Position numbers and translations under genes: made by a program
Source: a bacterium
Lineage (GTDB): Bacteria; AUK180
Length of the DNA stretch: 64,000 nucleotides
Assembly: GCA_023144005.1 (NCBI GenBank)
Contig: JAGLGN010000024.1
Coordinates: 1 to 64,000 of the forward strand
Direction: 5' to 3'
Shown: positions 26,630 to 44,914 of the stretch, piece by piece
How the letters are laid out: the number at the start of each line of letters is the position of its first letter
Position numbering within the stretch: position 1 is the first letter of the stretch
The notes under the pieces: model-generated
Told to the model about the DNA's origin: nothing
Database searches by the model: none
Seen by the model: only the letters and a program-made list of their open reading frames with translations

Positions 26630-26686
26630 TAAGGTTTTCTGCTTGATGGGAATGATACAAGTTCTGTGAAATATATATTGACTCGG

Positions 26687-26712
26687 CGTATCTTCGTATA
26701 TACGAAGATACG
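26687..26712. promoter_or_regulatory. 26-bp perfect palindrome, probable operator of the ArsR-like gene
   Basis: CGTATCTTCGTAT followed by its exact reverse complement. It sits between a TTGACT -35-like hexamer (26678-26683) and the regulator's ribosome-binding site, so a bound dimer would block transcription: the geometry of an autoregulated operator. The 37-bp stretch 26682-26718 is repeated with one visible change at 27036-27072, just past the gene's stop codon. Confidence 0.6.
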
Positions 26713-26740
26713 AAGATAGGGAATATGAAAAGAGGTAAGA

Positions 26741-27031
26741 ATGAAAATAAGTGAAATGGAAAAAAGAGCAATGAAGCTATTCAGTTTACTGAGTAATTCA
26801 ACTCGATTTATGATAATAAAAATCTTAAGAGTCAGTGATGAGAATGTAGGCACATTGGCTGAGTTGATCAATAAGGATGAAAGCACAATTTCAAAACATC
26901 TGAGATTGCTGCGTGACTTAGATATTGTATCCTTTAAAACTAATGAAAATAGAGTTATATATAGCCTTAAAAAGCGAGAAACTTTGAAATTAATTATAGA
27001 TGCAATGGAGTGTATGAAGAGAACTGAGTAA
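26741..27031 (+). CDS. ArsR-like winged-helix transcriptional regulator
   Basis: 96 residues with a winged-helix fold: the recognition region is EDESTISKHLRLLRDLDIVSF-like (helix around KDESTISKHLRLL, about 46-58), followed by a wing (NENRVIYSL). This is the compact ArsR architecture. No clear metal-binding Cys pair (CxC) is present, so it need not sense metals. AGAGGT precedes the ATG. Near-identical palindromes flank the gene on both sides, suggesting self-regulation and possibly control of the adhesin gene downstream, which carries a third copy beyond its operon. Confidence 0.88.
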   Translation: MKISEMEKRAMKLFSLLSNSTRFMIIKILRVSDENVGTLAELINKDESTISKHLRLLRDLDIVSFKTNENRVIYSLKKRETLKLIIDAMECMKRTE

Positions 27032-27035
27032 TCAG

Positions 27036-27150
27036 CTCGGCGTATCTTCGTATATACGAAGATGCGAAGATACCATTCGCCATTGGGATTATTGATACGA
27101 AAAATAAACTTAAAATGCAACAAAATATATCGCCGTCCCTATTTTGTTCT
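27036..27150. repeat. Direct repeat copy A with palindromic core
   Basis: A palindromic core (27041-27066, one mismatch), then CCATTGG...GATA...AAAATAAACT.AAAATGCAACAAAATATA..CCGTCCCTATTTTG. The same order of words is found at 33739-33847, on the far side of the adhesin and CsgG genes. The rest of the spacer to 27396 has a second ACCGTCCCTAT word (27169) and no recognisable gene. Confidence 0.75.
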
Positions 27151-27396
27151 GATGTCAACAATGTCAACCACCGTCCCTATATTTGATTCCCCAACAGGTC
27201 AAGGGATAGGGAGGGGAGGAGAAGGAGAAACACGAAAAAAGATACAAATAAGGAAATACAGAGAAGGATACAGAGAGGAGATGGATCTGAAAGTGTCAAA
27301 ATGCCAACCTGGCACGGTTGAATTGAAAATATATGAGAAATATGGTTTACTATTTATGGTTACAGAAGGGCAATATTATACGGAAAGGAGTGGCAT

Positions 27397-30300
27397 GTGA
27401 AAAAGGGAAGGATTTCTTTTGTTTTACTAATTCTGCTGATGCTGATATTTAGCAAAAACGCATATTCAATCTCGGTGATTGACGGATTTGATCCAAGCGC
27501 GAACGCAGCTGTAAGGGCCGTTGCGGTCGAATCTGACGGAGATATCCTCATTGGGGGGGATTTCACAACTATAGGACTGACGGCTAGAAACTATATTGCC
27601 CGGCTAGAGGTAGACGGAACATTGGACACCGGATTTGACCCGAATGCAGATGCAACGGTAAGGGCTCTCGCAGTTCAATCCGACGGCAAGATCATCATCG
27701 GCGGTGATTTCAGCATGGTCGGAGTTACATCAAGAAGCTACCTTGCGCGACTGAATTCAGACGGTTCACTTGATACGTCATTTATCACAAGTATTTCAAA
27801 TTCCGTTTACTCTGTTGCAGTTCAGGATGACGGTGGGATAGTTATCGGCGGTGATTTTACTACAGTAGGCGGAACTACAAGGAACCGCATTGCCAGACTT
27901 AATTCAGACGGTACTCTCGATACATCTTTTGATCCGAATGCCAGCGGTCAGATAACGACAATATCAGTTCAGGCAGATTGTAAGATAATTGTCGGAGGCG
28001 ACTTCACGGTAATTGATGGTACTGCGTGCAACAGAATTGCGAGGTTGAACACTGACGGCACCATCGATCCCGTATTTAATCCGGGAGCAGATGTCCATGT
28101 TAGGGCTTCAGCTATACAGGCTGACGGAAAGGTAATTATCGGAGGGTATTTCACCTCGGTCGATGGAACCGGAAGAAATTCCATTGCCCGTCTTAATACT
28201 GATGGTACCTTGGACAGCTCTTTTAATCCCAATGCCAGTAACAGTGTTCTTTCCATATCAGTTATGGAAAACGGAAATATCGTCATAGGGGGGGAATTTA
28301 CCACTGTCAGCGCGGTAGCGAGAGCCTATATAGCTCAGCTCGATCCCTCCGGTTCTCTTGTCACAACGTTTGATCCAGGTGCGGACGCAGCAGTTTTCGC
28401 CTCTGATACACAGAGGGACGGGAAGGTTGTTATCGGAGGGAGTTTCACGGATATCCAGGGCATAGGAAGAAACTATGTTGCACGGCTTGAAGCAGACGGA
28501 TCCCTGGACACCGCGTTCGATCCGGACGGGAATTCAACGATATCTGCTGTTGCCATCCAACCCGATGGAATGATACTTGTCGGCGGCTCATTTACCACGA
28601 TTTGCGGAACCAGTAGAAACCGCTTAGCCCGTTTATATCCTGACGGATCACTTGATACATCCTTTAATCCAAATCTCAATGGATCTTTGTATTCCATAGT
28701 ACTTCAAAATGACGGCAGTATCCTTATCGGCGGCTCATTTACCACTGTAGGAGGCACCGGTAGAAATTATATTGCCAGATTAAGCTCTAATGGAAGTCTC
28801 GATGCCGGTTTCAATCCCAATGCAAACGGCAACGTAATAACAATGGCGATTCAAACAGACGGCAAGATAGTTATTGGAGGAACCTTCACTATTGTCGGAG
28901 GGACAACAAGAAATCGTCTTGCCCGGATTAATTCAGACGGATCACTTGATGCGACTTTCAATCCTAATCCCGACAGGTTCGGAATATATTCTGTGACTGT
29001 CCAGCCGGACGGAAAGATCCTTGTCTCAGGTGACTTTTGGAGCATCGGTGGGAGTTTAAGTCATGATTACTTTGCACGCTTGAATTCAAATGGCTCACTT
29101 GACTCCGCATTTAATCCGGTTATAAACTATGATGTATATAACTGTGCAGTCCTATCAAACGGGAAGATAATAATCGTTGGTGGTTTTTCAAATGTCAACG
29201 GATTCCCCAGGTCCGATATAGCCAGATTGAATTCAAATGGAACTATAGATTCCTCATTTATTTCTTCACCTTCTTCATCTATTAATACTGTTATTGAGCA
29301 GACTGACGGCAACCTCATCATTGGGGGGAATTTTACATCTGTCTTCGGTACTACCCGGAATCGCATTGCCAGACTATCAGCTAACGGAGCGTTGGATGCC
29401 GATTTTGATCCTAATATAAATAACAGTGTGTATATGATATCTTTGCAGAATGATGGGAAACCCATTGCAAACGGAACATTTACTACAGCGGGCGGTGAAA
29501 CACGGAACCGAATTGCAAGGATAAGTACCGATGTGTCCGCAGTTCAGGAGATAACGGTTTCCAGTGATGGGACCAAGGTGACTTGGGGCCGCAGCGGGAG
29601 CCTGCCCGTTCTCCATTTTGTAACATTTGAAGAATCCACGGACGGAATCATTTGGACCCCGCTTGGAAATGGAACAAGGATCTCCGGCGGTTGGGAGCTT
29701 ACCGGTCTATCGCTTCCATTCTATCAGATAGGTTACATTCGTGCCCGGGGCCGCGCGGGAGAAAGCGGGGGCTCCATTATGGAAACGGTAAAGACCTACT
29801 ACCTCAGTTATTCTATTTCCGGCAACGTATCTTCCCTTGGCGGCGCGACTCTTGATCTGAGAAAGAACGGGGCCTGGGAAGGTTTCACGACCTCTGAATC
29901 GGATGGAAGTTATGTCTTTAATGCCCTTGAATCGGGCGCTAGCTATACCATCGTTCCGCAAATGGAGCACTATTCGTTCAGTCCTGAAAGTATTACATAC
30001 ACTTCCCTGGATGGAAATAAAACGAATGTGAATTTTACTGCGATCATAGATAAATGGGATCTCAGCGGAATTATTACTGACGGTTCAGATCCTATTCCAA
30101 ATATTACTGTCAATTTATCCGGAGGTAAGACCGCAAGCACAACCACGAGCGATACCGGGTACTACACTTTTCTTGAGCTTAATGCGGGTTCGACTTATAC
30201 TGTAACGCCCACCGCTGTGCATTGGATATTTTCACCCATTGAGACTACGCTTACGGATCTCTCAGCCGATCAGGCAAATGTTAATTTTACGGGTACTCTG

Positions 30301-32331
30301 GATACATGGAAGATCAGCGGAATCATTACGGACGGGACGGATCCTATTCAGGGCGTGCCGGTCGATCTTTCGGGCGGAAAAACCGACAGCACTACTACCA
30401 GTGATACCGGATTTTATTCATTTGCTGCTCTTGATGCCGGAGCAACTTACACTGTTACTCCCACCAAGACCCATTGGCAGTTTGTCCCTTCAGAACGAGA
30501 ATATTCTGATCTTTCAGCTGATCAGTCAAGTGCGGATTTTACAGGCACTCTGGATACATGGACGATCAGCGGTGTAATTACGGACGGAACGGATCCTGTT
30601 CAGAGTGTGACGGTTGATCTTTCGGGCGGGAAAACCGACAGTACTACGACCAGTGATACAGGATTTTATTCATTTGCTGCTCTTGATGCCGGGGCGACAT
30701 ACACTGTTATTCCATCAAAAGCTCATTGGCAGTTCACCCCGACCGATCGGGATTATTCTGACCTTTCGGCCGATCAGTCAAGTGCGGATTTTACCGGCCT
30801 CCTCGATACCTGGACGATCAGTGGAATTGTTACAGACGGTGTCTTGCCCATGATAGGGGAGACAGTAAATCTTTCCGGAGATTCAACCGCATCTACCACT
30901 ACCAGCGATACGGGGTTCTACTCTTTTCAAGATCTTCCTGCCGGATCCACATATGTTGTAACTCCTCAGAAGCAGTACTGGAGCTTCACTCCTGAATATG
31001 GAGCTTTTACTGATCTGAGTAATAATGAGACATCCGATTTTACAGGTACTTTGGATCACTGGGCAATTTCAGGTGTAGTTACATCCGGAGCAGTCCCTGT
31101 TATAGATGTGCTGATAGAGCTGACCGGAGATTCTACGAACAGCATTTCTACCAGTGATACGGGGTATTTTACATTTGACGGTCTTGAAGCCGGAGGGACA
31201 TACACCGTTACTCCATCCAAGACCAATTGGAGTTTTAATCCGTCAGAAAGTGTGTACATCGGACTTGATGCAAATGAAGATTCAACGGATTTTTCTGGAA
31301 CATTGGATCAGTGGTCGATTTCGGGAGTGATCGATGACAGTATCGACCCGCTTATGGGGATCACTGTCAATTTGACCGGGGATAAAACTGAAAGTACGAC
31401 CACAAGCAATACGGGATATTTTACCTTCAGTGAACTGGATGCCGGAGGTACTTACACAGTAACTCCTGATAAGGTTCATTGGTCTTTTAATCCCATTAGC
31501 ATTACCTGCGCAGATCTGACGGCAGATGAGGCAAGTGCTGATTTTACGGGGACTTTTAATCAATGGAATATCAGCGGAACGCTCACGGATTCCGATAGCA
31601 ATCCTTTGAGCATGGTAGATGTTTATCTAACCGGGGATAAAACAGCATCTACTACAACAAGCGATACCGGTTATTTCATCTTTGAGGACTTAAATGCAAA
31701 CGAAACCTTCACTATAACCCCTTCCAAGACCTTCTGGATATTTACTCCCGATAAACGGACATTCAGTGAACTTTTCGAAGATAAGCATTTGGTTTTCACC
31801 GGAACAATTGAGCAGTGGGAGATCAGCGGAATTGTTCTGGATGATGAAGGAATGCCGATGGAGGCGATCTCAGTGATGCTCTCCGGCGATTCCACGGGAA
31901 ATGCTATAACGGATATTTCAGGACAATATATATTCAGCAGTCTTGATGCTGGAGGAACATACATCATCACACCTGATGAGTCAGGTACAGTATTCATCCC
32001 TAAGTCGAGGGCCTTCACTCTTCTTTCCCAGAATGAGACAGGTGATTTTACACGGGCCTCAAATGCTACTGCAGAATCAGTTTTCGTATATCCGAACCCG
32101 GCGAAATCATATTTTATAATTGACCTTCTACCTCAAGGTACGGAAGTAGGACTGATAACCAGTGACGGGTACATGATCGAGAAATGGACGGTTGACGATT
32201 CCGATTTCAAGGTCTATTTTTCCGATCTGACCGATTTCAAATTCTACAGGGGACAATACTTATTGTACATCGAATTTCCTGATGGGAGTTCTGCTGTAAA
32301 ACCTCTTTATTATTACGGAGGCATGAAGTGA
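27397..32331 (+). CDS. Giant secreted delta-60-repeat adhesin with type IX-like sorting domain
   Basis: 1644 residues. A signal peptide (1-24) is followed by 14 delta-60-type (DUF5122) repeats of about 49 residues (about 27-712), each with DGKIIIGGDFT...RNRIARLNSDG, predicted to form beta-propellers. A short fibronectin-like link follows (about 715-800). Next are nine repeats of about 83 residues (about 803-1550) of carboxypeptidase-regulatory/SdrB-like type, each opening with W-x-I-S-G and containing STTTSDTGYYTF. The C-terminal 85 residues start with VFVYPNPAKSYF, the hallmark of type IX secretion sorting domains. The start is GTG with GGAG six bases upstream. Repeats at about 30298-30549 and 30550-30801 are nearly identical in DNA, showing recent duplication. 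The next gene overlaps it by four bases. Confidence 0.93.
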   Translation: MKKGRISFVLLILLMLIFSKNAYSISVIDGFDPSANAAVRAVAVESDGDILIGGDFTTIGLTARNYIARLEVDGTLDTGFDPNADATVRALAVQSDGKIIIGGDFSMVGVTSRSYLARLNSDGSLDTSFITSISNSVYSVAVQDDGGIVIGGDFTTVGGTTRNRIARLNSDGTLDTSFDPNASGQITTISVQADCKIIVGGDFTVIDGTACNRIARLNTDGTIDPVFNPGADVHVRASAIQADGKVIIGGYFTSVDGTGRNSIARLNTDGTLDSSFNPNASNSVLSISVMENGNIVIGGEFTTVSAVARAYIAQLDPSGSLVTTFDPGADAAVFASDTQRDGKVVIGGSFTDIQGIGRNYVARLEADGSLDTAFDPDGNSTISAVAIQPDGMILVGGSFTTICGTSRNRLARLYPDGSLDTSFNPNLNGSLYSIVLQNDGSILIGGSFTTVGGTGRNYIARLSSNGSLDAGFNPNANGNVITMAIQTDGKIVIGGTFTIVGGTTRNRLARINSDGSLDATFNPNPDRFGIYSVTVQPDGKILVSGDFWSIGGSLSHDYFARLNSNGSLDSAFNPVINYDVYNCAVLSNGKIIIVGGFSNVNGFPRSDIARLNSNGTIDSSFISSPSSSINTVIEQTDGNLIIGGNFTSVFGTTRNRIARLSANGALDADFDPNINNSVYMISLQNDGKPIANGTFTTAGGETRNRIARISTDVSAVQEITVSSDGTKVTWGRSGSLPVLHFVTFEESTDGIIWTPLGNGTRISGGWELTGLSLPFYQIGYIRARGRAGESGGSIMETVKTYYLSYSISGNVSSLGGATLDLRKNGAWEGFTTSESDGSYVFNALESGASYTIVPQMEHYSFSPESITYTSLDGNKTNVNFTAIIDKWDLSGIITDGSDPIPNITVNLSGGKTASTTTSDTGYYTFLELNAGSTYTVTPTAVHWIFSPIETTLTDLSADQANVNFTGTLDTWKISGIITDGTDPIQGVPVDLSGGKTDSTTTSDTGFYSFAALDAGATYTVTPTKTHWQFVPSEREYSDLSADQSSADFTGTLDTWTISGVITDGTDPVQSVTVDLSGGKTDSTTTSDTGFYSFAALDAGATYTVIPSKAHWQFTPTDRDYSDLSADQSSADFTGLLDTWTISGIVTDGVLPMIGETVNLSGDSTASTTTSDTGFYSFQDLPAGSTYVVTPQKQYWSFTPEYGAFTDLSNNETSDFTGTLDHWAISGVVTSGAVPVIDVLIELTGDSTNSISTSDTGYFTFDGLEAGGTYTVTPSKTNWSFNPSESVYIGLDANEDSTDFSGTLDQWSISGVIDDSIDPLMGITVNLTGDKTESTTTSNTGYFTFSELDAGGTYTVTPDKVHWSFNPISITCADLTADEASADFTGTFNQWNISGTLTDSDSNPLSMVDVYLTGDKTASTTTSDTGYFIFEDLNANETFTITPSKTFWIFTPDKRTFSELFEDKHLVFTGTIEQWEISGIVLDDEGMPMEAISVMLSGDSTGNAITDISGQYIFSSLDAGGTYIITPDESGTVFIPKSRAFTLLSQNETGDFTRASNATAESVFVYPNPAKSYFIIDLLPQGTEVGLITSDGYMIEKWTVDDSDFKVYFSDLTDFKFYRGQYLLYIEFPDGSSAVKPLYYYGGMK

Positions 32332-33653
32332 AAAGGGTAGTTATATTTCTTGTTCTGATTTCTGGTTTTACAAGCTACTCCTTAGATCTCCTGACCGTTT
32401 ACGATGCTTCATATTTCTGGAGCCAAAGCAGGTCAAATTCGATCGCCGGGATAAGCATTAATCCATCCTTCGGCGGACTTGGAGAAAGAGATCTGAACCT
32501 GAGATTCAACCACTTCAACGGTATCGCAGACGGAATGAGTATCTCATCAGGTATTTTTTCGGCGAAGATCAATGATGATCTGTCAGTCCATGCTGGGCTT
32601 GAAAGTTACAGCAAACCATCATTTGATGTTTACGACGAGACCGGGGAATTCATTCAGAATCTTGATGTTTCTGCAAATATCAAAGGTGATATTGGATTAG
32701 CATACAAGCTGCGCCCGGGTCTATTAATAGGATTTCAGTATAATCATTTTATCAATAATGTAGTCGGGGACGCGGGAGTAATTGATAAGGAGATCCTGAG
32801 TCTGGTCTCATTTGGATTTAATCTGAGTTTCCGTGAATTCCTGATCGGATTCACACTGAGGGATTTTAAGCTGTTTGAGTCATTGAAATATGAAGGGGAA
32901 TATCCTGAGCTTAGCAGCCTTGATTTTTCTGTCAGTAGAAGCTTTTTCAAGAACAATCTGAATACAAGTCTGATTTTTTCAAATGCTAACGGAAGGACAT
33001 CGGGTTATAAAGCAGCTTTGGCACTTGAGTACAGGTTGAGATACTTTTATCTAAGAACTGCATACCTCTATACTTCACAGTATCTTTCAATGCCATTTAA
33101 ATTTGGTTTCGGAATTAAATTCAGAGATATTGATCTGGACTACACCTTCTCTCCCGGGGAATTTCAGGGAAGTCATTACATCAGCCTCGGATACGGTTAC
33201 GATCTTCCCGAAAAAAGACAGCGGAGGAAACGCCCGGTCAATGATGCCGACAGGATCCTTGTTGCTGTACTTGATTTTGAAAAGCGCGATGTAGGGGAAG
33301 CGGAGGCGATCGTGATCACTGATTATCTGAGAAGTGAGATGATCAATTCCGGCTATTTCAAAGTCCTTGAGAGAAGCGCCATCGATTCTATACTTCAGGA
33401 ACTCAACTTCCAGCAGTCGGGATGTACTGATGCTTCATGTGCTGTTGAGGTTGGTAAGATACTGGCGGTTAGGAAGATGATTGTCGGCCGCCTTTCAAAA
33501 GTGAATGGAAAGTACTACATCACTGCACGGGTTGTTGATGTGGAGACATCCGAGATAGAATCTTCAGAATCGATTGAGGCTGCCGAGACTCTCGATGGAC
33601 TCAAAAAGAATCTGGGGGCCCTCGTAGACAGAATAGTGGATAATCTGAGATAG
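32328..33653 (+). CDS. Outer-membrane barrel fused to CsgG/LpoB-like domain
   Basis: 441 residues with a signal peptide (about 1-18). Residues about 20-285 are rich in amphipathic strands and resemble PorV/PorP-type barrels that accompany type IX secretion substrates. After a basic linker (about 290-300) comes a CsgG/LpoB-like alpha/beta domain (about 305-440): ILVAVLDFEKRDV, a helix with LRSEMI, FKVLERSAIDSIL, and then LNFQQSGCTDASCAVEVGKIL. The GTG start overlaps the adhesin stop as GTGA and has GGAGG six bases upstream, so the pair is translationally coupled. It probably helps export or anchor the adhesin (inference). Confidence 0.85.
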   Translation: MKRVVIFLVLISGFTSYSLDLLTVYDASYFWSQSRSNSIAGISINPSFGGLGERDLNLRFNHFNGIADGMSISSGIFSAKINDDLSVHAGLESYSKPSFDVYDETGEFIQNLDVSANIKGDIGLAYKLRPGLLIGFQYNHFINNVVGDAGVIDKEILSLVSFGFNLSFREFLIGFTLRDFKLFESLKYEGEYPELSSLDFSVSRSFFKNNLNTSLIFSNANGRTSGYKAALALEYRLRYFYLRTAYLYTSQYLSMPFKFGFGIKFRDIDLDYTFSPGEFQGSHYISLGYGYDLPEKRQRRKRPVNDADRILVAVLDFEKRDVGEAEAIVITDYLRSEMINSGYFKVLERSAIDSILQELNFQQSGCTDASCAVEVGKILAVRKMIVGRLSKVNGKYYITARVVDVETSEIESSESIEAAETLDGLKKNLGALVDRIVDNLR

Positions 33654-33738
33654 AGTATCACATCTTTACTTTTTACTTTTTTTGAACATGGAACACTGGA
33701 TCGGCGATCGCAGGCTCCATTCCTTCTAAAGTCTGTAC

Positions 33739-33847
33739 CTATCTTCGTATCTTCGTATATACGAAGATACGAAGATAGCCATTGGATTTCCTGATAATAA
33801 AATAAACTCAAAATGCAACAAAATATACCTCCGTCCCTATTTTGGTT
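33739..33847. repeat. Direct repeat copy B with perfect 40-bp palindrome
   Basis: The core 33739-33778 is CTATCTTCGTATCTTCGTAT joined to its exact reverse complement, an extended form of the operator-like palindromes at 26687 and 27041. The downstream part (CCATTGG ... AAAATGCAACAAAATATA..TCCGTCCCTATTTTGG) matches copy A at 27036-27150. Together they bracket the adhesin and CsgG genes. Confidence 0.8.
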
Positions 33848-34628
33848 GACAAAATATCAGGCGAAGGAGACAGGAAATACGGGAAAGAGAGAAAAAGAAA
33901 TTTCCAGAAGGATAATCCATCCCATCTATCATTCCCGACTTGATCGGGAATCCATCTGGTATTTACTCCTTGCGTTTCCCTCACTTGTGCACTTGTGCTC
34001 TTGTCACTTGTGCTCTGCGTAGCGTGTTCCACTGGGTCCACTTGTACCTGGGTCCACTGCGCAGCGTAACCTGTGAACTTGGCACCTGCGAACTTGCGAA
34101 CAATCTTATTCAACGACCGTCCCCATGTCACATTCGAGGCAGACAGCAGAAAGAAAGTCGAACAATACGTGAATTACTTGCGAAAACACGCTGTTTTCAT
34201 TCAACACTTTCAACCACCGTCCCCATGTCTGGTTGCGGGAATATCGGCCCGAAGGGGAAGGGAGAGAGGGGAGCGGAAATACGAGATGGGAAAGACAGGA
34301 GATCGGAATGAGGAGATCGGAGAGAGGGGATCAGAAAATGGAAACCGAGATCTTCCATACGGATTCCCTGTCATTCTGAAGGAGCTTGCGACCGAAGAAT
34401 CCAGTTTTATTTCACCCTGCCTTCTCCCACTTTACACTTTTCACTATCTTTTGTTCCACTGGGACACTGGGTCCACTTGTCCCTGGGTCCACTGCGAAGC
34501 GTGTCCCTTGTACCTTCTTTTTGGCTTCACGCTTCGCTTATGGTATAATGTCACAAGTGAGGGCTGTTTGAAAATGTTGATAAAAGAAAAATGGATAGAA
34601 AGTACGATACTTCATAAAAGGGGTTACT
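33848..34628. repeat. Repeat-filled spacer, no gene seen
   Basis: Covarying hairpin repeats at about 33925-33975 (core CATTCCCGACTTGATCGGGA) and 34373-34405, CTTGTGCTCTTG heptads (33985-34020), CCACTGGGTCCACTTG blocks (34030-34060 and 34455-34500), GCGAACTT words (34085-34100), and two ACCGTCCCCATGTC words (34116 and 34218). Open frames crossing this region are built from repeats. A probable start signal for the defence operon lies near 34540-34560 (TATGGTATAATG). Confidence 0.75.
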
Positions 34629-37600
34629 ATGGAAAATAAAAAATATACGAAAACGGAAGCTAAAGAGAGCGTCAAGAAACTAGTAGTTTCCTTCCACAAT
34701 GAATTTGGAGATACAGCAAACGCCGGACGAAAAGAAGCCCAGGTTGAAGACAAGTATATCAAACCTTTATTCTCTTTCTTAAATTGGAATATACATAGTC
34801 TCGGTATGGATCGAGGGCGCGAAGAATTCCGAGTCCAAACTTCTCAAAAATTGAGAACATCCACCAAGGAACCGGATTATGAGCTTTGGATACCAGATAA
34901 AGCATCACAAGAAATGAGAAGAATACTCTTCATGGAAGCCAAGGATCCCAAATACGACTTATCAAAGGAAGTAAAATATATAAGACAAGCGTATCAGTAT
35001 GCTCATAGTTCTTTAAGTTTGTCTGATAATCCTTCAAAGTGGACAAACCTTTCAATATTAACTGATTTTGAGGAGTTCAGACTATTTGATTGTAGAGATC
35101 CCTATCCGTTAATAGAGAATGATGTTAATATATTTAACAAGTATATAGTAAAACCCTTTGATATGAAATACCCTCAGTACATAACTGAATTTAACTTACT
35201 TTGGGATGTTTTTGAAAGGAACAATGTTTATAACGGAAGCCTAAGCGAATTCCAGGTTACTGAAAAAGATCTTAAAAAGAGCAGAATCGCTCCAGATCAA
35301 AGATTCTTGGACGATCTTCGTACTTGGCGGTTAGCTTTTGCGAAAAGTATGTATAAGTCAAATAAAGAAGTTTCAAACGAGTTCTTGACCGCAGCAACAC
35401 AGTTAATGATTAATCGAATCATTTTTCTGAAAATGTTGACAGATAGAGACATTGAAGAGGATTACCTCACTAAAATCCTCGATAAGATCAAAAATGAAAA
35501 GAAGGAAATATCAATCTATGATTCGTGTAGAGATATTTTTGAAGGTTTAAATAAAACATATAACGGAGATATTTTTCAGAGACGAGGAGAATTTGACTTC
35601 GTTAAAATTGAAAATGGGGTATTCAAATCCGTGATTGAATCTCTAATTCCGGAAAAATCTGTATATACCTTAGCTGCAATGCCAGTCGAGATTATCGGTA
35701 ATGCCTATGAGCAGTTTCTCGGTGAAGTGATAGTTCATAAGGGGCGAGGCATTAGTTCTGAGAGGAAACCTGAAGTTCAAAAGGCAGGAGGTGTGTATTA
35801 TACACCGAAGTATATTGTGGATTACATTGTTGAAAATACGGTTGGTGAGAAATTAAAGAGTTGCAAAAAACCAAGTGATGTAGAGAAAATAAAAATTCTT
35901 GATCCGGCCTGTGGCTCGGGCTCTTTCTTATTGGGTGCATATGAGTATTTGCTTAGCTGGCACGAAGCTTACTTTGTCAAGGAAATAGAGAAAATGTTAG
36001 AAAAAGGGAAGTCATCATCTAATATAACAAAAAAATTCAAAGAGGAAATTAAATATTACCCGATCTCCGAGGAAATTGGTGGTCACAAGTTTTTGATTCA
36101 TCTCACCAGTAAGGTTAAAAGGAAAATATTATTGAACAATCTCTTTGGAGTAGATATAGACTCAAACGCAATAGAAATCACGAAATTTAGTTTAAGTATG
36201 AAGGCACTGGAAGGATTGAATAAGCGTGAGATTGGCGATGATGTAACTCTTTTTCATGAACAAATTCTTCCTTCACTTGAAAACAACATTAAGTGTGGCA
36301 ATTCCTTAATTGGGAATGATTATTTTGAAGATAAACTACAATTTGACGATAGGGAATTGAAGGAGATAAATCCCTTTGACTGGGAAGCCGAATTTCCATA
36401 CATCTTCAATGATGGCGGATTTGACTGTGCAATAGGAAATCCTCCATATCTCCCCTTTCATCTTGGAAGCAAAGAAATCAAGAAATATTTTTGCACTAAT
36501 TATCAAAGCGCAATAGGTAAATATGATCAATATATTATTTTCACAGAGAAATCATTACAGCTGTTAAAGAATCAAGGGGAATTCGGTTTCATAATTCCAA
36601 ACAAATTCATCCATTCAAACTATGGAAAAGGATTGAAGAAAGTGATTCTTAAAAGGAATATCCGTGTAATAACAGACTTTGGCGACATCCAGATTTTCTC
36701 TAATGCGACAAATTATCCATGTATTCTAATCATTAGAAATAATGAGAAATGGGATTCTTTTAAATATAATAAAGTAAGTCATATTTTATCCGAAAGGTTC
36801 TCGTACAATGTACTTGAGATTAATCAGAAAACACTAAATACTGATTCTTGGTTGCTAATATCGGAACGTGAAGGCAAAATAGTAAAGAAAATAGTTTCAG
36901 ATAACATTCCCTTAAAGAAAATATCTATCGCAATAACCCAAGGAATAAGAACGGGCTTGTTAACAATTTTCTATAATAACATTAATAAGGAATTTGTTCG
37001 CTTAAGAAAAATAGAAAGGAAGTTAATCAAACCAATTTTCCATGGAAAAAATGTGAAAAGGTATTATTCAACAGTTGATTTTAACAATGATATAATGTTG
37101 TTCCCCTATAAAGACGACTGTAAATCACCTATTGATATCAATGAATTTCCAAATACTAAAATGTATTTAGAGGGATATAAAGAAAAGCTGTTATCTAGAA
37201 AGGATTCGGGTAAAGTATTTAGGAATGTTAACAAGAAATGGTTTGAATTTTGGGATTCGAAGTACATTTCGTTTACATCACCAAAAATCGTGTTCCCCGA
37301 CATATCAAAGGCCAATAACTTCTATTTAGATGAAGACGGGATAGGGTATTTAAACACTTGTTATGCTATTATTTTAAAAGAAGCAAGTATGTATAGGTTC
37401 GTTCTGGGAATATTAAACTCAACTTTAATTGAGTTTTTTATAAAGAAAAACAGTCCTTACATTAGAGGGGGATATTACCGCTATAAGACAAAGTATATTG
37501 AGAAAATACCAATTCCTTATATAGATAATTCTGACTTGAATTTCATCCCATCGTACAACAAGATAGTTGATTATGTAGATCGGATGCTTCTGTTCCAAGG

Positions 37601-37751
37601 GAAATATCATTCAGCAAAGACGGAACAGGACAAAGAACTCTATCAGAAACAAATTTACGTCTTAGATAGGAAGATCGATGACCTTGTTTATAAATTGTAT
37701 GGATTGACGGATGAAGAGATTGAGATTGTAGAGGGAAAATTTAAGAATTGA
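34629..37751 (+). CDS. Type IIG-like restriction enzyme/adenine methyltransferase
   Basis: 1040 residues. The N-terminal region has a PD-(D/E)xK nuclease pattern, EPDYELW (about 81-87) and FMEAKDP (about 103-109), like type I R-subunit N-domains. The N6-adenine methylase follows: motif I DPACGSGSFLLGAYEYLL at about 425-442 and motif IV NPPY at about 604-607. The C-terminal 350 residues would be the target-recognition domain. Eco57I/type IIG enzymes have this plan. PglX of BREX is an alternative but there are no BREX partners here. The start follows AAAGGGGTTACT. The region is visibly AT-richer than neighbouring operons and the SIR2 gene overlaps its end by four bases. Confidence 0.9.
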   Translation: MENKKYTKTEAKESVKKLVVSFHNEFGDTANAGRKEAQVEDKYIKPLFSFLNWNIHSLGMDRGREEFRVQTSQKLRTSTKEPDYELWIPDKASQEMRRILFMEAKDPKYDLSKEVKYIRQAYQYAHSSLSLSDNPSKWTNLSILTDFEEFRLFDCRDPYPLIENDVNIFNKYIVKPFDMKYPQYITEFNLLWDVFERNNVYNGSLSEFQVTEKDLKKSRIAPDQRFLDDLRTWRLAFAKSMYKSNKEVSNEFLTAATQLMINRIIFLKMLTDRDIEEDYLTKILDKIKNEKKEISIYDSCRDIFEGLNKTYNGDIFQRRGEFDFVKIENGVFKSVIESLIPEKSVYTLAAMPVEIIGNAYEQFLGEVIVHKGRGISSERKPEVQKAGGVYYTPKYIVDYIVENTVGEKLKSCKKPSDVEKIKILDPACGSGSFLLGAYEYLLSWHEAYFVKEIEKMLEKGKSSSNITKKFKEEIKYYPISEEIGGHKFLIHLTSKVKRKILLNNLFGVDIDSNAIEITKFSLSMKALEGLNKREIGDDVTLFHEQILPSLENNIKCGNSLIGNDYFEDKLQFDDRELKEINPFDWEAEFPYIFNDGGFDCAIGNPPYLPFHLGSKEIKKYFCTNYQSAIGKYDQYIIFTEKSLQLLKNQGEFGFIIPNKFIHSNYGKGLKKVILKRNIRVITDFGDIQIFSNATNYPCILIIRNNEKWDSFKYNKVSHILSERFSYNVLEINQKTLNTDSWLLISEREGKIVKKIVSDNIPLKKISIAITQGIRTGLLTIFYNNINKEFVRLRKIERKLIKPIFHGKNVKRYYSTVDFNNDIMLFPYKDDCKSPIDINEFPNTKMYLEGYKEKLLSRKDSGKVFRNVNKKWFEFWDSKYISFTSPKIVFPDISKANNFYLDEDGIGYLNTCYAIILKEASMYRFVLGILNSTLIEFFIKKNSPYIRGGYYRYKTKYIEKIPIPYIDNSDLNFIPSYNKIVDYVDRMLLFQGKYHSAKTEQDKELYQKQIYVLDRKIDDLVYKLYGLTDEEIEIVEGKFKN

Positions 37752-38713
37752 GAAGCAGAAGAGAAAAACCAATTGATTTCTCATCAGAAGAATACAGAGA
37801 ATTTGTGTCCAAGGTTAAAGTTGAAGGTGCATATTTCTTTATTGGTGCGGGTTTTGCCAAATTATTGGATTTTCCATTATGGTATGGATTAGTAAATGAG
37901 CTTGTTCAATATTTCTGGGAGAATCGCAGTCAAATTAAACGAAAAAAACTTACATTTAGCCATATAGAGAGTCTGAAGAATAATCAGAGATATGCATATG
38001 TCATGGATTATCTCTTTTCGCTAAATAAAGAGTTGTTTTACAGTGGAGTAGAAGAAAGCCTAGGAAAAGAACTCAAATCCGAGGCGAAAGAAAAAATTTA
38101 TTTCCTTCGAAAACTTTGCAGAGCCCGCTTTCCAGATAAAACTCCAAAATATCCTATATTGACAACGAATTTAGATACATCTATCGAAAAATGTTTTAAC
38201 ATTTCTAATGTTAATTATTCTCAAGAGACATTTATTGATGATGTGACAAGTCAGATATTTTATCTACATGGGAGAATCCATTCACAAAAATGTGATGATA
38301 GGGACCGAAGAAAAGACTGGATATTGACTCAAGAGGATTATTTGAATCAATATCTAAGTGAAATCAGTAAATTAAATGTATTTCTTCAAAATATATTTAA
38401 TAAGAAAACAGTTATCTTTGTTGGTTATGGTTTAAAGGAATTCGAAATTCTTCAGGCGATTGCGAAAAGAAATTCAATTGCAGAGAAAGAATTCAGAATT
38501 CAGCATTACGCATTTCAAGCGATTTATAAATTAAACGAAAACGAAGTAGAAGTAAATGAAAAGGTCTTGAAAGATCGGTTCAATATACATTTATTGAAAT
38601 TTGGCATTGAACTATCAGGATGGGATGGACTAATGCATAATTTTAGTTATTTAGTTGATGCAATATGTGATGAAGAATATCCAGAGCCAGGAGATAGTAA
38701 AAGTGAGCAGTAA
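37748..38713 (+). CDS. SIR2-like NADase, putative defence effector
   Basis: 321 residues, a SIR2 domain nearly from end to end: FIGAGFAK (about 31-38) is the NAD-binding Gly-Ala-Gly loop, TTNLD (139-143) carries the conserved Asn/Asp, LHG (173-175) the catalytic-type His, and GYGLKEFE (226-233) the late Rossmann motif. Bacterial SIR2 proteins in defence loci degrade NAD+ on phage infection. No SLOG or other sensor domain is visible, unlike ThsA. The start is TTG, overlapping the methylase stop. The next frame begins eleven bases before its end. Confidence 0.88.
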   Translation: MRSRREKPIDFSSEEYREFVSKVKVEGAYFFIGAGFAKLLDFPLWYGLVNELVQYFWENRSQIKRKKLTFSHIESLKNNQRYAYVMDYLFSLNKELFYSGVEESLGKELKSEAKEKIYFLRKLCRARFPDKTPKYPILTTNLDTSIEKCFNISNVNYSQETFIDDVTSQIFYLHGRIHSQKCDDRDRRKDWILTQEDYLNQYLSEISKLNVFLQNIFNKKTVIFVGYGLKEFEILQAIAKRNSIAEKEFRIQHYAFQAIYKLNENEVEVNEKVLKDRFNIHLLKFGIELSGWDGLMHNFSYLVDAICDEEYPEPGDSKSEQ

Positions 38714-41700
38714 AGTATTTATATCGTACTCGAGTAAAGATAAAGAATTTGTAAAAAAACTTATAAGAGAATTGAACAGGAAAAAAGTAAATATCTGGAT
38801 AGATGAGTTTGAGATAAAAGTAGGTGATAGCATAATTGAAAAAATCACGGAAGGCTTATCCGAAAGTTCATATTTGATTATTGTGCTTTCAAAGCATTCT
38901 TTGAAAAGTAAATGGGTTGAAAAAGAGCTAAAGATCTCGTTAATGCTTCAACTCAACAAGGGAGCAATAAAAATCTTCCCGCTATTGTACAAAATAGACT
39001 TTGACGAAATCCCACTATTTTTGCAAGACATTAAAGGATTAAAAATTGATGATGAAATTTCTGAAAACGCTATATCTGGGTTGATAGAACCAATATTACA
39101 CTCTCAAAAAGGTGTAAGCGTTCTAGAATTGCAAAGTACCTTTTTTCGGGGGGCGGAATATATTGATGAGATTCTACTTGAAGAGAATCCTTCAATAAAG
39201 AAAGTTAATGTGGTAATCGAATTACTATCAAAGGATTCTTTTAGGAATTATTTTCTAAAGAGAGTGAATAGTGTTGAGTGGTTGAGTTTATTGCAGAAAC
39301 TAGGTTACTTTAATCCTATAAATATTCCAAATGTCGAAGAGCAAGTAATTCGAGGGCAAAAAACGAGAATGATTCCATTTTGGCGGCCCTTGACTTATTT
39401 GGAGCTTCTATCATCCAGACCTTCAAATGATAGACGAATTCAGGATAGTTTGGTAGGAATTATAAAAGATGTAAGTGAATATATTTATACTCATGAAGAG
39501 AAATATGATAATAGAATCTTCTGGTATTTCATAAAAATATTAAGCAATTTACCAGAAGAGCTAATCACAAATGATGTTATTGAGCTTATTCCAAATTGGG
39601 TTAGACTAAATTGGGATCGTCATTTAATCTCTTCTGAAATAATGGAGAACTTGTTACCCAAATTGTTAAATGAAAATCAGAAAAAAGCTTTAAAACTTAT
39701 TCAAATTATAACTAGTGTTGTAAAGATCAAAGAGGAGAAATCAGTGTTTTCTCCAGGATATTCTTTTGAATTGCTTCTAGATAAATATTGGCTTGAAGAA
39801 GGATTCAAGAAAAACTCAGAATTGATTACAGAGAAATGTGGAGTTCATGCAATAAAGAAAATATTAGAAAACATTGATGTAATTTTAAGGAAAAGTGAAA
39901 CAAGTATATATTTCGATGAGGATGAAAAGGAATTAGTATTTAAAGAAAGGAAAACTCATTATATGCTATCCTATGAAAGTAGGCAGGTCGATATTAAAAA
40001 AAATGAGATTGATAATATATTTAGTGATATATTGGAAAAGGAACCCTTGAGGGTTCTATCTTCTTCCAAGGAATTCAAGTATATTAATTCAAAGGTTCAT
40101 AAATTGATGAGAAATCATTTCGGTCTTGGAACTTGGAATAGTTTTTGGGACGACAAGGAATATGCACTTGATTCATTAGATGTATTAACGAAAATAATAA
40201 AAAATTTAGCTCTGGAAATTGTGAATATGGAAGAATACTTGGATGACCTGTTTAAATTACTTCCGGAATTTCTAATAGAGAATTATTTATATTACCCGAA
40301 ATTTGCATTATATATTATTGGCTGTAATGTCAAAGCTTTCTCCGAAGTGTTTGTGCAATTTGTCGGTGAGAAGTATTTGTATATATTCGAATCAACTGAA
40401 TTTCACGATGAAATCCGACACATTTTGGAAGGTCTTCAGAATTATAAAGAGGAAATATTAACAGGAAACATTTTAGAAAAGTTGGAAACTCTTATTAACA
40501 AGATACCACAGTATCATTATTATCTTGATGATCCTGATGGCTATGGAGAAGACGTTCGGCAACGTTACTATAATGCTCTTTCATGGTGTCCCAAATATGA
40601 AAAAATGATTACAAAAGAAACTAAATTGGCACCAATAATTGGCAAAGCAATAGTTACAACAGGTATCCCCGAAAAAGATCAGTACATAATATCAATTGAG
40701 GAGCTTAATCGAAAGAACAATAATGAGATTTCAAAAATATTGAAGAATAAGAAAACATCAAATAGTGAGTTCTGGCGGATATTTGAAACAGCAATATCAA
40801 TAGAACCTTTTAAATATAGTATTGACATGAAACCTTTTCGGAAAGCTCCATATTGCCAGTTAGAAGCTCTTTTTAACGGATTTGAGAAGGCAATAAAGGA
40901 TGGAAATAGGGATAAGATTAAATTCGAAAATCTATTGAACTTTATTCAAGAAATGCTTGAAGATGAGGAATTTTGGCTAGATAAGTATAACACTAAGAAT
41001 TATTGGGGCTCCTCTAAGCATACCGATGTTTTAAGAGAGATTTACGACTTGTTATCCAAAATACTGCATGAGACCACAGAAATTTATGCCAATTACTCTG
41101 AAATGATTATAGACATATTGTCTAGATTACTAAAATCGGAACTTTCAGAGATTGGCTTGAAGAGAAATTTGGAAGTAACAGGGGACAGAGACATTCTAAA
41201 CTTCATTATGTTAAATAACTCAGCTTCTGTACTTAGAGTGGGATTTTTCCTGCTATTAAAGCTAATGAATTTGAAGAATCCCAAATATTCTGAAAATATA
41301 AGACATCTCAAAGGGATTCTGCTAAAAGAAATGGATATTTTGATAAAAACAAAGAACGTGGTGGGATATTCAATACTTGGATATTTTGCTACAAATTTTC
41401 TTGCAATAGATAAGGAATATATTGAAAGGCATGTAAATAGTGCAATGCGTCTGAATGATATTGAAATATGGAAGTACTTTATGGAGGGATATATTTGCCG
41501 TTCACTATTGAATGAAGATTCATATCTTCTTATGAAAGAGAATCTGTCTTATGCACTGGATAATATGGACATTATTGAAGTAAATTCAAGAGAACGCTTG
41601 ATTCAGCAGCTATCACTGTACTATTTATGGGGATATGAAGGCACCTCATCAGGTTTATTATATAATCTGCTTATGAAAAATAATCCTGAATACATAACAG

Positions 41701-42221
41701 AACTGCTATATTATTTATGGTCATTGAAAGATGAAATTCTCATGAGGGATAGAGAAAGGGGAGAAAAGGGAGGATCGAGGATACTAGAAATCTGGAAATG
41801 CATTTACGAGGAGTATAAGGAAATCCCGAAAGAAGAATTGACAGATGATCAGAAAAAGATGCTATCAGTTTTGGGAAATCTTGCGGTTTATTTGGTTGAG
41901 CTTAAGAAGTCATTTAAATTGCTCAAACTATCAGCCCCTTGGAGTGATTATTATTATAACTCCCACTACTTCATAGAATATATAAATAATTTAAAAAATA
42001 AAGGTAATAATCATACAGAATCTGCAAAGTACATAAGTGAAATCTATTTAGCGATGCTTGCTGAGTCAACGCCAACATACTACGAAGAACACATAATCGA
42101 AATAGTTGAATACCTGTATCGAAATCCACCCTCAAAGAAAGATGCAGATAGGATTTGCAATATTTATGGAGAAAGGGGTAATAACTTCTTGAAACCAACT
42201 TATGATAAATATAATAAATAA
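38703..42221 (+). CDS. TIR domain protein with ~1000-residue helical C-terminal region
   Basis: 1172 residues from GTG 38703 (AGGAGA eight bases upstream; it overlaps SIR2 by eleven bases). The TIR domain spans about 3-135: KVFISYSSKDKEFV (4-17), IWIDEFEIKVGDSI (31-44) and WVEKEL (71-76), with Glu75 in the position of the catalytic NADase glutamate. The rest is a long, Leu/Ile/Lys/Glu-rich helical region of solenoid character, including NSVEWLSLLQKLGYFNP and MIPFWRPLTYLELL (about 200-250), like ends of some NACHT/STAND defence proteins. I see no P-loop, so it appears to lack the NTPase of STAND sensors. Confidence 0.88.
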   Translation: MSSKVFISYSSKDKEFVKKLIRELNRKKVNIWIDEFEIKVGDSIIEKITEGLSESSYLIIVLSKHSLKSKWVEKELKISLMLQLNKGAIKIFPLLYKIDFDEIPLFLQDIKGLKIDDEISENAISGLIEPILHSQKGVSVLELQSTFFRGAEYIDEILLEENPSIKKVNVVIELLSKDSFRNYFLKRVNSVEWLSLLQKLGYFNPINIPNVEEQVIRGQKTRMIPFWRPLTYLELLSSRPSNDRRIQDSLVGIIKDVSEYIYTHEEKYDNRIFWYFIKILSNLPEELITNDVIELIPNWVRLNWDRHLISSEIMENLLPKLLNENQKKALKLIQIITSVVKIKEEKSVFSPGYSFELLLDKYWLEEGFKKNSELITEKCGVHAIKKILENIDVILRKSETSIYFDEDEKELVFKERKTHYMLSYESRQVDIKKNEIDNIFSDILEKEPLRVLSSSKEFKYINSKVHKLMRNHFGLGTWNSFWDDKEYALDSLDVLTKIIKNLALEIVNMEEYLDDLFKLLPEFLIENYLYYPKFALYIIGCNVKAFSEVFVQFVGEKYLYIFESTEFHDEIRHILEGLQNYKEEILTGNILEKLETLINKIPQYHYYLDDPDGYGEDVRQRYYNALSWCPKYEKMITKETKLAPIIGKAIVTTGIPEKDQYIISIEELNRKNNNEISKILKNKKTSNSEFWRIFETAISIEPFKYSIDMKPFRKAPYCQLEALFNGFEKAIKDGNRDKIKFENLLNFIQEMLEDEEFWLDKYNTKNYWGSSKHTDVLREIYDLLSKILHETTEIYANYSEMIIDILSRLLKSELSEIGLKRNLEVTGDRDILNFIMLNNSASVLRVGFFLLLKLMNLKNPKYSENIRHLKGILLKEMDILIKTKNVVGYSILGYFATNFLAIDKEYIERHVNSAMRLNDIEIWKYFMEGYICRSLLNEDSYLLMKENLSYALDNMDIIEVNSRERLIQQLSLYYLWGYEGTSSGLLYNLLMKNNPEYITELLYYLWSLKDEILMRDRERGEKGGSRILEIWKCIYEEYKEIPKEELTDDQKKMLSVLGNLAVYLVELKKSFKLLKLSAPWSDYYYNSHYFIEYINNLKNKGNNHTESAKYISEIYLAMLAESTPTYYEEHIIEIVEYLYRNPPSKKDADRICNIYGERGNNFLKPTYDKYNK

Positions 42222-42230
42222 GGAGCAAAA

Positions 42231-43361
42231 ATGAATCTGAATGTCTTCCATGATAAGGCATTGAAAATACCAATTAATTATGCTGGAAATATTATTAATC
42301 AATTGGACAAGCAATACAAGAAATACTTCGATTTCCTAGAAACAAACAAAAACCATGAATTGTTTAAAGAAGTGTGGAAAGAAATAAGAACTATCAGAAA
42401 TATTTCAAAAGTAATTATCAAATCAATAGAATATTTCTATCATGGCAAAAAGAATGAGGGATATCGTGGTGTCAAGCATATATTTGATAAATACCAACAC
42501 CATGCTGCATATCTATTGAAACCAGTCACGGGTCCTTTATTTCGTATCCGTATAAGCTCGAATTATTCTCTCGATATTTGTGACCTCCTTCATATTCCTT
42601 TTGAGAAAAGATACTTAATTTCTAATCAGAGATACAGTATTTCAGGAATCCCGTGCTTATACTTGGGGAGTTCAATGTACGTGTGCTGGGAAGAGATGGC
42701 GCGACCCAACTTTAATGACATTCATTGCATTTGCCTAGTTCCCAAGGAAACTATTTCGATACTTGATTTTAGTAAGACACCTCTTGATTATATCAAAGAT
42801 TTTGATCTTAGGAATCGTCCTTCAGAGAATGGAATACCACCAGAAGAAATTAAATATGCAATTTCTTACTTCATATTTTTCCCACTTATAATCTCCTGCT
42901 GCTTAATACCCCAATATCGTAATTCAACATTTTTTCCAGAATATATAATTCCACAATATCTTATGGAATATCTAATCCACTCAGATATCGACGGTGTTTC
43001 ATATACATCAGTGAGGAAAAATAGTGAAAATTCTGATAGCAGATTATGCGCAAATTACGCATTTCCAAGCAAAACGCCGAAAAAGAAAGGAATAGACAGA
43101 AAACTTATGGAGAAGTTCTACACCACAACGCCATATTCATATTATTGTTCGTTTTTGGAAACAATGCATTTCAAATCAACACCCTCAAGGAGGGATAATC
43201 AGGGATGGCGATTGTATTTAACATCAAATACAGGTGCTGCACATTATGAGTTTACGGAATTTCACTTATTCGAAAGCTTTATGATAGAAAAATATAGGCG
43301 TGATAAATACTACTTAAACCGACAAACATGGAAGAAGGCATTAGAAGGAGTTAATAAATGA
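42231..43361 (+). CDS. RES domain protein (putative NAD+-degrading toxin)
   Basis: 376 residues. An N-terminal helical domain (about 1-95), possibly one of the HEPN/RES-associated types, precedes a RES domain: LFRIRIS (103-109), YSISGIPCLYLGSS (135-148), the conserved Glu in CWEEM (about 154), PQYLMEYLI (241-249) and DGVSYTSV (254-261), giving the Arg-Glu-Ser trio that names the family. RES toxins of Xre-RES toxin-antitoxin pairs degrade NAD+. No Xre antitoxin gene is nearby. AAGGAG lies before the ATG, nine bases after the TIR gene, and the stop overlaps the next ATG by four bases. Confidence 0.82.
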   Translation: MNLNVFHDKALKIPINYAGNIINQLDKQYKKYFDFLETNKNHELFKEVWKEIRTIRNISKVIIKSIEYFYHGKKNEGYRGVKHIFDKYQHHAAYLLKPVTGPLFRIRISSNYSLDICDLLHIPFEKRYLISNQRYSISGIPCLYLGSSMYVCWEEMARPNFNDIHCICLVPKETISILDFSKTPLDYIKDFDLRNRPSENGIPPEEIKYAISYFIFFPLIISCCLIPQYRNSTFFPEYIIPQYLMEYLIHSDIDGVSYTSVRKNSENSDSRLCANYAFPSKTPKKKGIDRKLMEKFYTTTPYSYYCSFLETMHFKSTPSRRDNQGWRLYLTSNTGAAHYEFTEFHLFESFMIEKYRRDKYYLNRQTWKKALEGVNK

Positions 43362-44914
43362 TACAAGAAATAGTACTAAATAATAACAAAGGGATCAAGA
43401 AATTAAAGCTATCTAACTTAGGAAAGATAAATGTCTTTGTAGGTAGAAACAATTCCGGAAAAACTGCCATATTAAATGCAATACTGGAAAAACACCTTAT
43501 TCAAGCAATGGAGGCTATGTTTAATATAGGAATTTACCAGGAACTGTATGCTAGTTTGGACGACAAGTCTAAATTTGATTTTGAATATTTTTATCAGTTT
43601 ATGAAGTCATTTGAAAAATACTTCAAGCAGAATATAGGAGAATTTTCATTCAATCGAAATCGAGAATCGGAGGCAACCTTTCTAATTCAAAGACTTAAAG
43701 GTTTCGTTGGCATATCTAATTCAAAAGTTCGAAGTGATTATTTGGGTAAACAAACAAAATTTAATACTACTCTTAAGAATGAATTTCAGAAAAATAATAC
43801 GGTAGTATTCTTTGATTCAAAAAGGGCTTTAGCCGATGAATTTTCAATTTCCAATTCGTTCAATTATGTAGATATTATTAATCCAAAACAATTGGATGGA
43901 AAAGAATTCCTAACTTATTTACACTACGGTCGCAACCGGAAGAAGAGCTCATCTGAAAATAAAATATTTGCATTTATCAATGATTTGTTCGCAGAAATCA
44001 CGCAAAATGCTGAATTCGAAATGGACTTAGAAGAGCAAAATCACAATACTAAGAATATTATTCTGTATTTCAAAGAAAGGTATCAAGATGATAGTTATCC
44101 TTCAAAATATTGTGGAACTGGATATAAAGAGATTCTTCTCCTATTATTTGCGGCAGCAAATCCGAAATTCAAAACAGTTATCATAGATGAACCAGAGAAT
44201 TTTCTCCATCCTGAATTCCAGAGAAAGTTATTAGCTATTTTTAAAGATAAATCAGATAAACAGTATTTCATTGCCACACATTCTTCGGTTCTTTTAGATG
44301 AAAGATATGTTGATAGGATATTTCAAGTAAATAACTCTGGAGAAATCACTGCTGAAGAGATAACAAGCAAAGCGATCGTTCTAAATGAATTAGGATATTC
44401 ACCAATCGATAATTTGACATCAGATTTGATAATTTTATGCGAGGGACCTTCGGACAAAAGAGTAATTAACGAAGTATTAGAAAAAATGGAATTAACCGAC
44501 AAATATAGTGTAAAATATTTGTTCTTGGGCGGTGATATCATGTCTCAAGTTGATGTCGATGTAGTTCTTCAGATAAGCAAAACAATCGCAATAATTGATT
44601 CAGATCCAGGGAGTAGAAAGGAAAGAAATCGTTTTAAAGAATTGTGCAAGGAGAATGGAATCCCATGCTATCAAACAAAAAGGTACGCCATTGAAAACTA
44701 CTTCACAGTAGAAGCATTGAGGGAAGCGTTTGGTAGTAAAATTCCTTCAGAAATTGAAGAAATCAATCCAGATGAAAAACTGGAAAAGCAGATCGGGATT
44801 AACGTAAAAAAAGGTAATCAGAAGATTATTAAGGCTATGGCTATCGAGGATATCAAGGGAACGGATATCTATGAAGGTTTCTTTTTAAGAGTAAAAGAAT
44901 TATTGGAGAGATGA
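43358..44914 (+). CDS. OLD family ATPase with C-terminal TOPRIM nuclease domain
   Basis: 518 residues. The ABC/SMC-type ATPase has Walker A GRNNSGKTA (29-37), Walker B TVIIDEPENFLHPEF (about 272-286) and the switch His in IATHSSVLLD (about 305-314). The TOPRIM domain has the Glu of LCEGPSDK (about 360-367) and the DSDPGS aspartates (about 413-418). This is the plan of OLD nucleases and Gabija GajA. No UvrD/GajB helicase is beside it. The ATG overlaps the RES gene stop (ATGA), placing both in one translational unit. A 93-base gap follows before the DUF2971 gene. Confidence 0.92.
   Translation: MIQEIVLNNNKGIKKLKLSNLGKINVFVGRNNSGKTAILNAILEKHLIQAMEAMFNIGIYQELYASLDDKSKFDFEYFYQFMKSFEKYFKQNIGEFSFNRNRESEATFLIQRLKGFVGISNSKVRSDYLGKQTKFNTTLKNEFQKNNTVVFFDSKRALADEFSISNSFNYVDIINPKQLDGKEFLTYLHYGRNRKKSSSENKIFAFINDLFAEITQNAEFEMDLEEQNHNTKNIILYFKERYQDDSYPSKYCGTGYKEILLLLFAAANPKFKTVIIDEPENFLHPEFQRKLLAIFKDKSDKQYFIATHSSVLLDERYVDRIFQVNNSGEITAEEITSKAIVLNELGYSPIDNLTSDLIILCEGPSDKRVINEVLEKMELTDKYSVKYLFLGGDIMSQVDVDVVLQISKTIAIIDSDPGSRKERNRFKELCKENGIPCYQTKRYAIENYFTVEALREAFGSKIPSEIEEINPDEKLEKQIGINVKKGNQKIIKAMAIEDIKGTDIYEGFFLRVKELLER

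Follow-up and report, generated by a model that had tools for sequence, protein, structure and literature searches.

Organisation of the locus

The window (the whole stretch of DNA analysed, 64,000 nucleotides) belongs to contig C17 of a 2.67-Mb genome (G000) and holds a variable segment between a conserved peptidase gene and a conserved transglycosylase gene. Within it, a two-gene operon for an adhesin-like and a CsgG-domain protein is bracketed by two direct repeats, L and R, next to a small arsR gene:

26605-51494, hypervariable segment, delimited by comparing G000:C17 with contig C92 of a second genome of the same genus (G001); conserved flanks are the peptidase gene (left) and the transglycosylase gene (right)
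26687-26718, palindrome CGTATCTTCGTATATACGAAGATACGAAGATA upstream of arsR
26741-27031, + strand, 96-aa ArsR/SmtB-family helix-turn-helix (HTH) protein, forming with its two flanking palindromes a unit of ~400 bp
27036-27146, + strand, L, the left-hand copy of the composite direct repeat; the palindrome within it (27041-27072) also serves the arsR unit as its downstream one
27101-27146, + strand, 46-bp core of L, ending in CCGTCCCTATTTTG and 93% identical to the core of R (33799-33844)
27150-27259, + strand, left internal boundary piece, a TGTCAACAATGTCAACCACCGTCCC end plus a purine-rich spacer
27397-32331, + strand, adhesin-like protein of 1644 aa with delta-60/DUF5122 propeller repeats and CarboxypepD_reg-like (carboxypeptidase-regulatory-like) domains
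32328-33653, + strand, 441-aa protein with a C-terminal CsgG/LpoB-like domain, its N-terminal part having been read as of barrel type
33739-33844, + strand, R, the right-hand copy, with palindrome (33739-33778) and core (33799-33844)
33845-33980, + strand, right external boundary piece
34100-34223, + strand, two more CCGTCCC-type terminal repeats, ACAATCTTATTCAACGACCGTCCC and TTCAACACTTTCAACCACCGTCCC
34629-46323, + strand, neighbouring low-GC defence-like module (type IIG RM, SIR2_2, TIR, RES, AAA_21 and others)
49109-50344, + strand, CsgG/formylglycine-enzyme fusion gene on the right side of the hypervariable segment

A sequence-only reading of the window had proposed that an adhesin-CsgG pair is framed by direct repeats with nothing else between them, and both parts of this description held. 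L and R align with 84% identity over 106 bp (E 3e-26), and their similarity is not due to chance: the alignment score of 129 compares with maxima of 31 at 1,697 other window positions and of 32 in 2,000 shuffles. Between them lie only the adhesin and CsgG genes, which overlap by 4 bp, and we found no recombinase or transposase gene in this interval. Each repeat is a composite of a TTCGTAT/ATACGAA palindrome (CTATCTTCGTATCTTCGTAT/ATACGAAGATACGAAGATAG in R), a CCATTGG spacer that occurs as two subtypes, and a 46-bp core (AAAATAAACTCAAAATGCAACAAAATATACCTCCGTCCCTATTTTG) terminating in CCGTCCC; the longest stretches identical between L and R measure ~18 bp. Repeats of this full-length type number two in the whole genome, namely L and R themselves, and the palindrome is found at only six sites (three in the window, two on C9 and one on C37), those on C9 and C37 sitting within another type of repeat of ~270 bp. 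An Rfam scan of the window gave no match, no intrinsic terminator was detected in the region scanned around arsR and L, and the exact core and palindrome patterns were not found in viral contigs.

The best homologue of the CsgG protein (57% identity) is encoded on contig C30 of genome G004, and the G001 proteins include no close homologue, the best full-length match being 36% identical and the matches to the adhesin being confined to partial repeat-domain hits. Additional matches to the two proteins were found side by side in the window genome, G001 and G004, and the pair thus looks like a member of a paralogous operon family. Neither the palindrome nor the core accompanies the closest homologous pair in G004, whose contig begins within the adhesin gene. 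A compositionally foreign origin of the pair was not supported, as its GC content (42-47%) is like that of the left flank; the defence-like module has a GC content of 31-34% from 36 kb onwards.

A sister genome carries other content in place of the operon

Collinearity between G001 and the window extends to position 26604 and is restored from 51495 onwards, mostly at 92-96% identity, whereas gene content and order differ between these points. The adhesin-CsgG pair is missing from G001 as a unit at this otherwise collinear locus, which supports the proposal of the sequence-only reading that the two genes are gained and lost together. Both boundary pieces are retained there in the same order: the left internal piece (27150-27259) matches G001:C92:33541-33432 at 94.5%, against 81-89% for other dispersed copies, and the right external piece (33845-33980) matches G001:C92:32011-31875 at 94.2%, against 83-90% for the others. 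Between them lies a 228-aa gene, whose product, judged by its sequence, is a putative treble-clef protein. As the sister genome thus carries a different gene at the same spot, the pair acts like a module that can be exchanged, and as that gene occupies the space between the same two boundary pieces, G001 does not present a simple empty site. The CsgG/formylglycine-enzyme gene, which lies on the right side of the variable segment in the window genome, is found at its left edge in G001.

The G001 locus holds a single repeat, which resembles L to the left of AAAATAAACT and R to the right of it, the pattern that a hybrid left by insertion or deletion would be expected to show. We treat this mosaic as suggestive only, because its palindrome is of another type (TTTCGAATTTAGCTAATTACGAAA), so that the left flank is not simply that of L, and because the left-side likeness to L is common to a subfamily of core copies. 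The sequence-only reading had suggested searching relatives for an allele with one repeat and no pair; G001 provides this in part, but with other cargo upstream and a different palindrome, and neither an intermediate nor an exact empty site was seen among the compared genomes. The comparison covers two loci in one other genome of the genus, with fragmentary assemblies; chimeric joins are possible, since the records of G001 and of a further genome, G002, are MAGs, and both compared loci lie within contigs of 57-117 kb.

Core copies lie at the edges of other variable genes

The examined G001 contigs contain 11 copies of the core, which lie in islands, have varied left flanks and bracket other variable genes too; within a cluster they are often spaced at 2-9 kb and point the same way. 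On G001:C154, a 275-aa gene and a Fic-type gene lie between two cores; both genes are missing from the corresponding locus on G000:C16, where different genes and no core are found and beyond which collinearity picks up. The two C154 cores form part of longer direct repeats, of 348 bp (90% identity) and of 137 bp (98.5%). As a general mechanism, simple deletion between directly repeated copies finds no support at C154/C16, and it fails to explain C16 because the genome without the cargo retains no copy of the core. Repeats turning up at numerous unrelated places without any preference for flanking mobile genes would have spoken against the original proposal; the core is indeed scattered in G001, but at each of the two comparable loci it marks the borders of variable genes.

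On balance, we favour the explanation that copies of the composite intergenic repeat and related spacer blocks bound interchangeable gene modules in hypervariable loci of the two sister genomes, and that the adhesin-CsgG operon is one such module, exchanged by recombination between shared spacers. This reading is the best supported since it needs no dedicated enzyme, explains why alternative cargo lies between conserved boundary pieces, and fits the dispersal of the core. Incoming DNA and the chromosome would share spacer repeats, and recombination between these spacers, whether homologous or microhomology-assisted, would be the most likely route by which the operon at the peptidase/transglycosylase locus could be gained, lost or replaced as a unit; no enzyme encoded by the unit itself would be required. 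The repeats, the alternative content of the sister genome, its matching boundary pieces and mosaic repeat, and the dispersal of the core are observations; spacer recombination as the mechanism, and likewise the direction of change, we infer. L and R look like general module-boundary sequences and not like dedicated transposon ends. A search of the literature on repeat-bounded hypervariable loci returned nothing directly matching.

The locus offers a concrete and testable case in which dispersed intergenic repeats may divide hypervariable loci into exchangeable modules, such as an adhesin/secretion pair or defence genes. If the palindromes are exchange points, the turnover of surface-protein and defence genes in this lineage should be predictable from repeat positions. 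The ~18 bp of identity between L and R is short for RecA-type recombination, an observation that counts against the exchange account.

Appreciably less probable, but still a serious alternative given how few genomes could be compared, is that L and R belong to a dispersed class of non-autonomous repeats and inserted independently on either side of the operon, the turnover of cargo being unrelated. Core and palindrome are both dispersed in intergenic DNA, the palindromes on C9 and C37 lie inside a different element, the closest homologous operon (G004) has no such repeats, and any intergenic insertions necessarily bracket some gene. Yet the sole two full copies of the genome share one orientation and are separated by 6.7 kb, the sister genome keeps both boundary pieces around exchanged content, and C154 shows a similar situation.

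Relation to transposon ends and to recombination sites

The genome encodes five Y1_Tnp (HUH transposase) genes, four of which have inverted GGGACGG/CCGTCCC ends ~0.9 kb apart. A tandem 9-bp repeat adjoins CCGTCCC, and its sequence agrees at the two ends of each of these four flanked genes; across the 107 distinct ends in the loci examined, the period-9 signal amounts to 5.5 matches out of 9, against 2.4 in shuffles. CCGTCCC ends are common and dispersed in the genome. The arrangement is akin to that of TIRtrons, or TIRYT (TIR-associated Y1 tyrosine transposases with dispersed TIR repeats), whose published motif is GGGGWSAS (PMC3733652): the same four genes are flanked by inverted GGGGACGG.../...CCGTCCCC-type ends, such ends are dispersed, and GGGGACGG fits 7 of the 8 motif positions, being one base off. 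Unlike those elements, L and R bear the CCGTCCC-side end only, in direct orientation and with no transposase; the 9-bp tandem repeat beside CCGTCCC finds no mention in the description consulted. The likeness to REP/BIME mosaics (PMC2817692, PMC3733652) extends to short palindromic, dispersed, intergenic and mosaic repeats tied to Y1 transposases, whereas here no GTAG tag was seen and palindrome and transposase-type end are separable modules.

We rejected the idea that L and R are the two ends of one transposon, since their CCGTCCC ends are direct, not inverted, and the interval holds the adhesin and CsgG genes with no transposase. An Xer-type reading of the window palindrome was also rejected, on spacing: the palindrome is gapless (TTCGTAT/ATACGAA), so that 11-bp XerC-like arms would overlap, and two such arms separated by a 6-bp spacer are not what is found. 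There is nonetheless a resemblance to the dif modules and pdif sites of Acinetobacter plasmids (PMC13141974), in which genes are bracketed by short inverted-arm sites, with a half-site resembling TTCGTATA, and are exchanged module by module. The differences from that system are that the present repeats lack the 11-6-11 architecture, have a perfect palindrome within long composite repeats, carry a palindrome sequence that tracks an ArsR gene, and lie at a locus not known as a plasmid.

We regard it as unlikely that the operon is a dedicated mobile cassette whose core or palindrome would be the target of site-specific recombination, L and R being att-like sites and the mosaic repeat of G001 the unoccupied one. 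The switch from L-like to R-like sequence in AAAATAAACT, the C154 cores that likewise bracket cargo missing from the sister, and the resemblance of the palindrome arms to XerC arms of pdif sites (e.g. GCTTCGTATAA) would all fit such a cassette, but the boundary pieces in G001 enclose other cargo, C16 is left without any core copy, the unit has no recombinase, the main palindrome has no 6-bp spacer, and, core left-flank subfamilies being variable, the pattern among L, R and the G001 repeat may equally reflect subfamily membership. For the transferable cassette first envisaged speak the absence of the pair as a unit from G001, the mosaic repeat there and the other variable genes bracketed by the core; against it, there is no clean single-repeat empty site, no repeat at C16, no recombinase or transposase, the ends are direct, and the closest homologous pair, in G004, is without palindrome and core as far as its contig reaches.

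A palindrome-flanked arsR gene at the left repeat

The 26741-27031 protein scores above the cut-offs of two family HMMs (NF033788, 57.7 bits against 55; HTH_5, 37.8 against 22, 1.7e-9), and the third palindrome copy at 26687-26718 means that arsR is flanked on both sides, by the palindromes at 26687 and 27041. A search of GTDB genomes for this ArsR family returned seven loci, distributed over three related genomes. The intact copies in G001 and G002, five in number, are all flanked by palindromes on both sides, and no such palindrome stands on either side of an AUK180 arsR copy or of a G002 pseudogene; another G001 locus has a decayed arsR with the same ends. The type of palindrome tracks the ArsR subtype: ATCTTCGT palindromes are found in the window and G002 (ArsR proteins 74% identical), ATGTTCGT with a G001 copy whose ArsR is 50% identical, and TTTCGTATTTAGCTAAATACGAAA or TTGCGTATTTGGTTAAATACGGAA with G001 copies at 40-43%. 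In two near-identical G001 arsR copies the palindromes are inverted, and those of the ATCTTCGT and ATGTTCGT types appear direct by eye. In two comparisons (window 26672-27075 with G002; L152 3908-4318 with L154), homology runs out at the palindromes or close to them, near-identical copies of the unit sharing 13-60 bp of additional sequence. In G001, no arsR intervenes between the orthologous peptidase gene and its next neighbour. The ArsR gene with its flanking palindromes looks like a discrete and possibly mobile unit. No relatives of the ArsR protein were detected in viral contigs, and the literature on ArsR, palindromes and mobile elements yielded nothing directly matching and no description of a ~400-bp unit.

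The cognate ArsR protein probably binds to the palindromes. It is very improbable, however, that these are primarily ArsR operators, with the adhesin operon and other palindrome-adjacent genes as an ArsR regulon and the bracketing secondary. In favour of such a role, each of the six intact copies with flanking palindromes has one within ~100 bp 5' of arsR, palindrome type follows the ArsR subtype, the 26741-27031 protein passes the ArsR/SmtB model, and members of this family bind to inverted repeats close to promoters (PMC8790569). Against it, the adhesin start lies ~325 bp downstream of the nearest palindrome, solo palindromes are mostly found 130-900 bp away from start codons, and neither the downstream palindrome copies nor the CCGTCCC cores are accounted for.

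A further idea, which we consider rather unlikely, is that the ~400 bp of palindrome, arsR and palindrome constitute a minimal element, mobile or self-propagating, in which a 96-aa ArsR-type protein would spread with its cognate palindrome and leave solo palindromes that, fused to transposase-type ends, would become boundaries for module exchange, as at the adhesin-CsgG operon. Like the autoregulators of the ArsR/SmtB family (PMC8790569), the unit combines a small ArsR protein with a palindrome just 5' of its start codon; unlike them, it has a second palindrome copy directly downstream, and cognate palindromes are dispersed elsewhere.

Palindrome-bounded arsR units

In the window and in several other stretches compared (L labels, coordinates local to each), an arsR gene lies between two palindromes, which in the window are of the TTCGTAT/ATACGAA type:

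window 26687-27072, palindrome-arsR-palindrome unit, ~400 bp
L144 8977-9363, palindrome-arsR-palindrome unit, ~400 bp
L143 5973-6378, palindrome-arsR-palindrome unit, ~400 bp
L142 7493-7897, palindrome-arsR-palindrome unit, ~400 bp
L152 and L153, around 3908-4318, palindrome-arsR-palindrome units, ~400 bp

Throughout these units ArsR subtype and palindrome type go together, and the palindromes mark the limit, exact or near, of homology between copies. The window's arsR-flanking palindrome is also contained in a ~270-bp element that brackets a single TPR gene on C9, a contig of the same genome (G000):

L036 3991-4028 and 5792-5829, ~270-bp palindrome-containing element around the TPR gene, contig C9

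A dispersed repeat of ~272 bp (e.g. L134 1105-1378) occupies about 40-45 places in G000, its copies being about 84-91% identical.

Y1 transposase ends

At the TIR-type ends of Y1 transposase genes (L046, L048, L051), and at CCGTCCC ends in the loci examined, a tandem 9-bp repeat adjoins CCGTCCC; the 9-mer is the same at both ends of one transposase and differs from transposase to transposase.

Defence-like module and differences from the sister genome

window 34629-46323, low-GC defence-like module

This module encodes a type IIG RM protein, a SIR2_2 protein, a RES-domain protein, an AAA_21 ATPase and a TIR protein whose C-terminal part is DSR1-like, and contains a PDC-S31 match. In the sister genome G001, the CsgG/formylglycine-enzyme fusion gene (window 49109-50344) is placed elsewhere within the variable segment, and about 5.8 kb of extra DNA is present at window 13342-13529.
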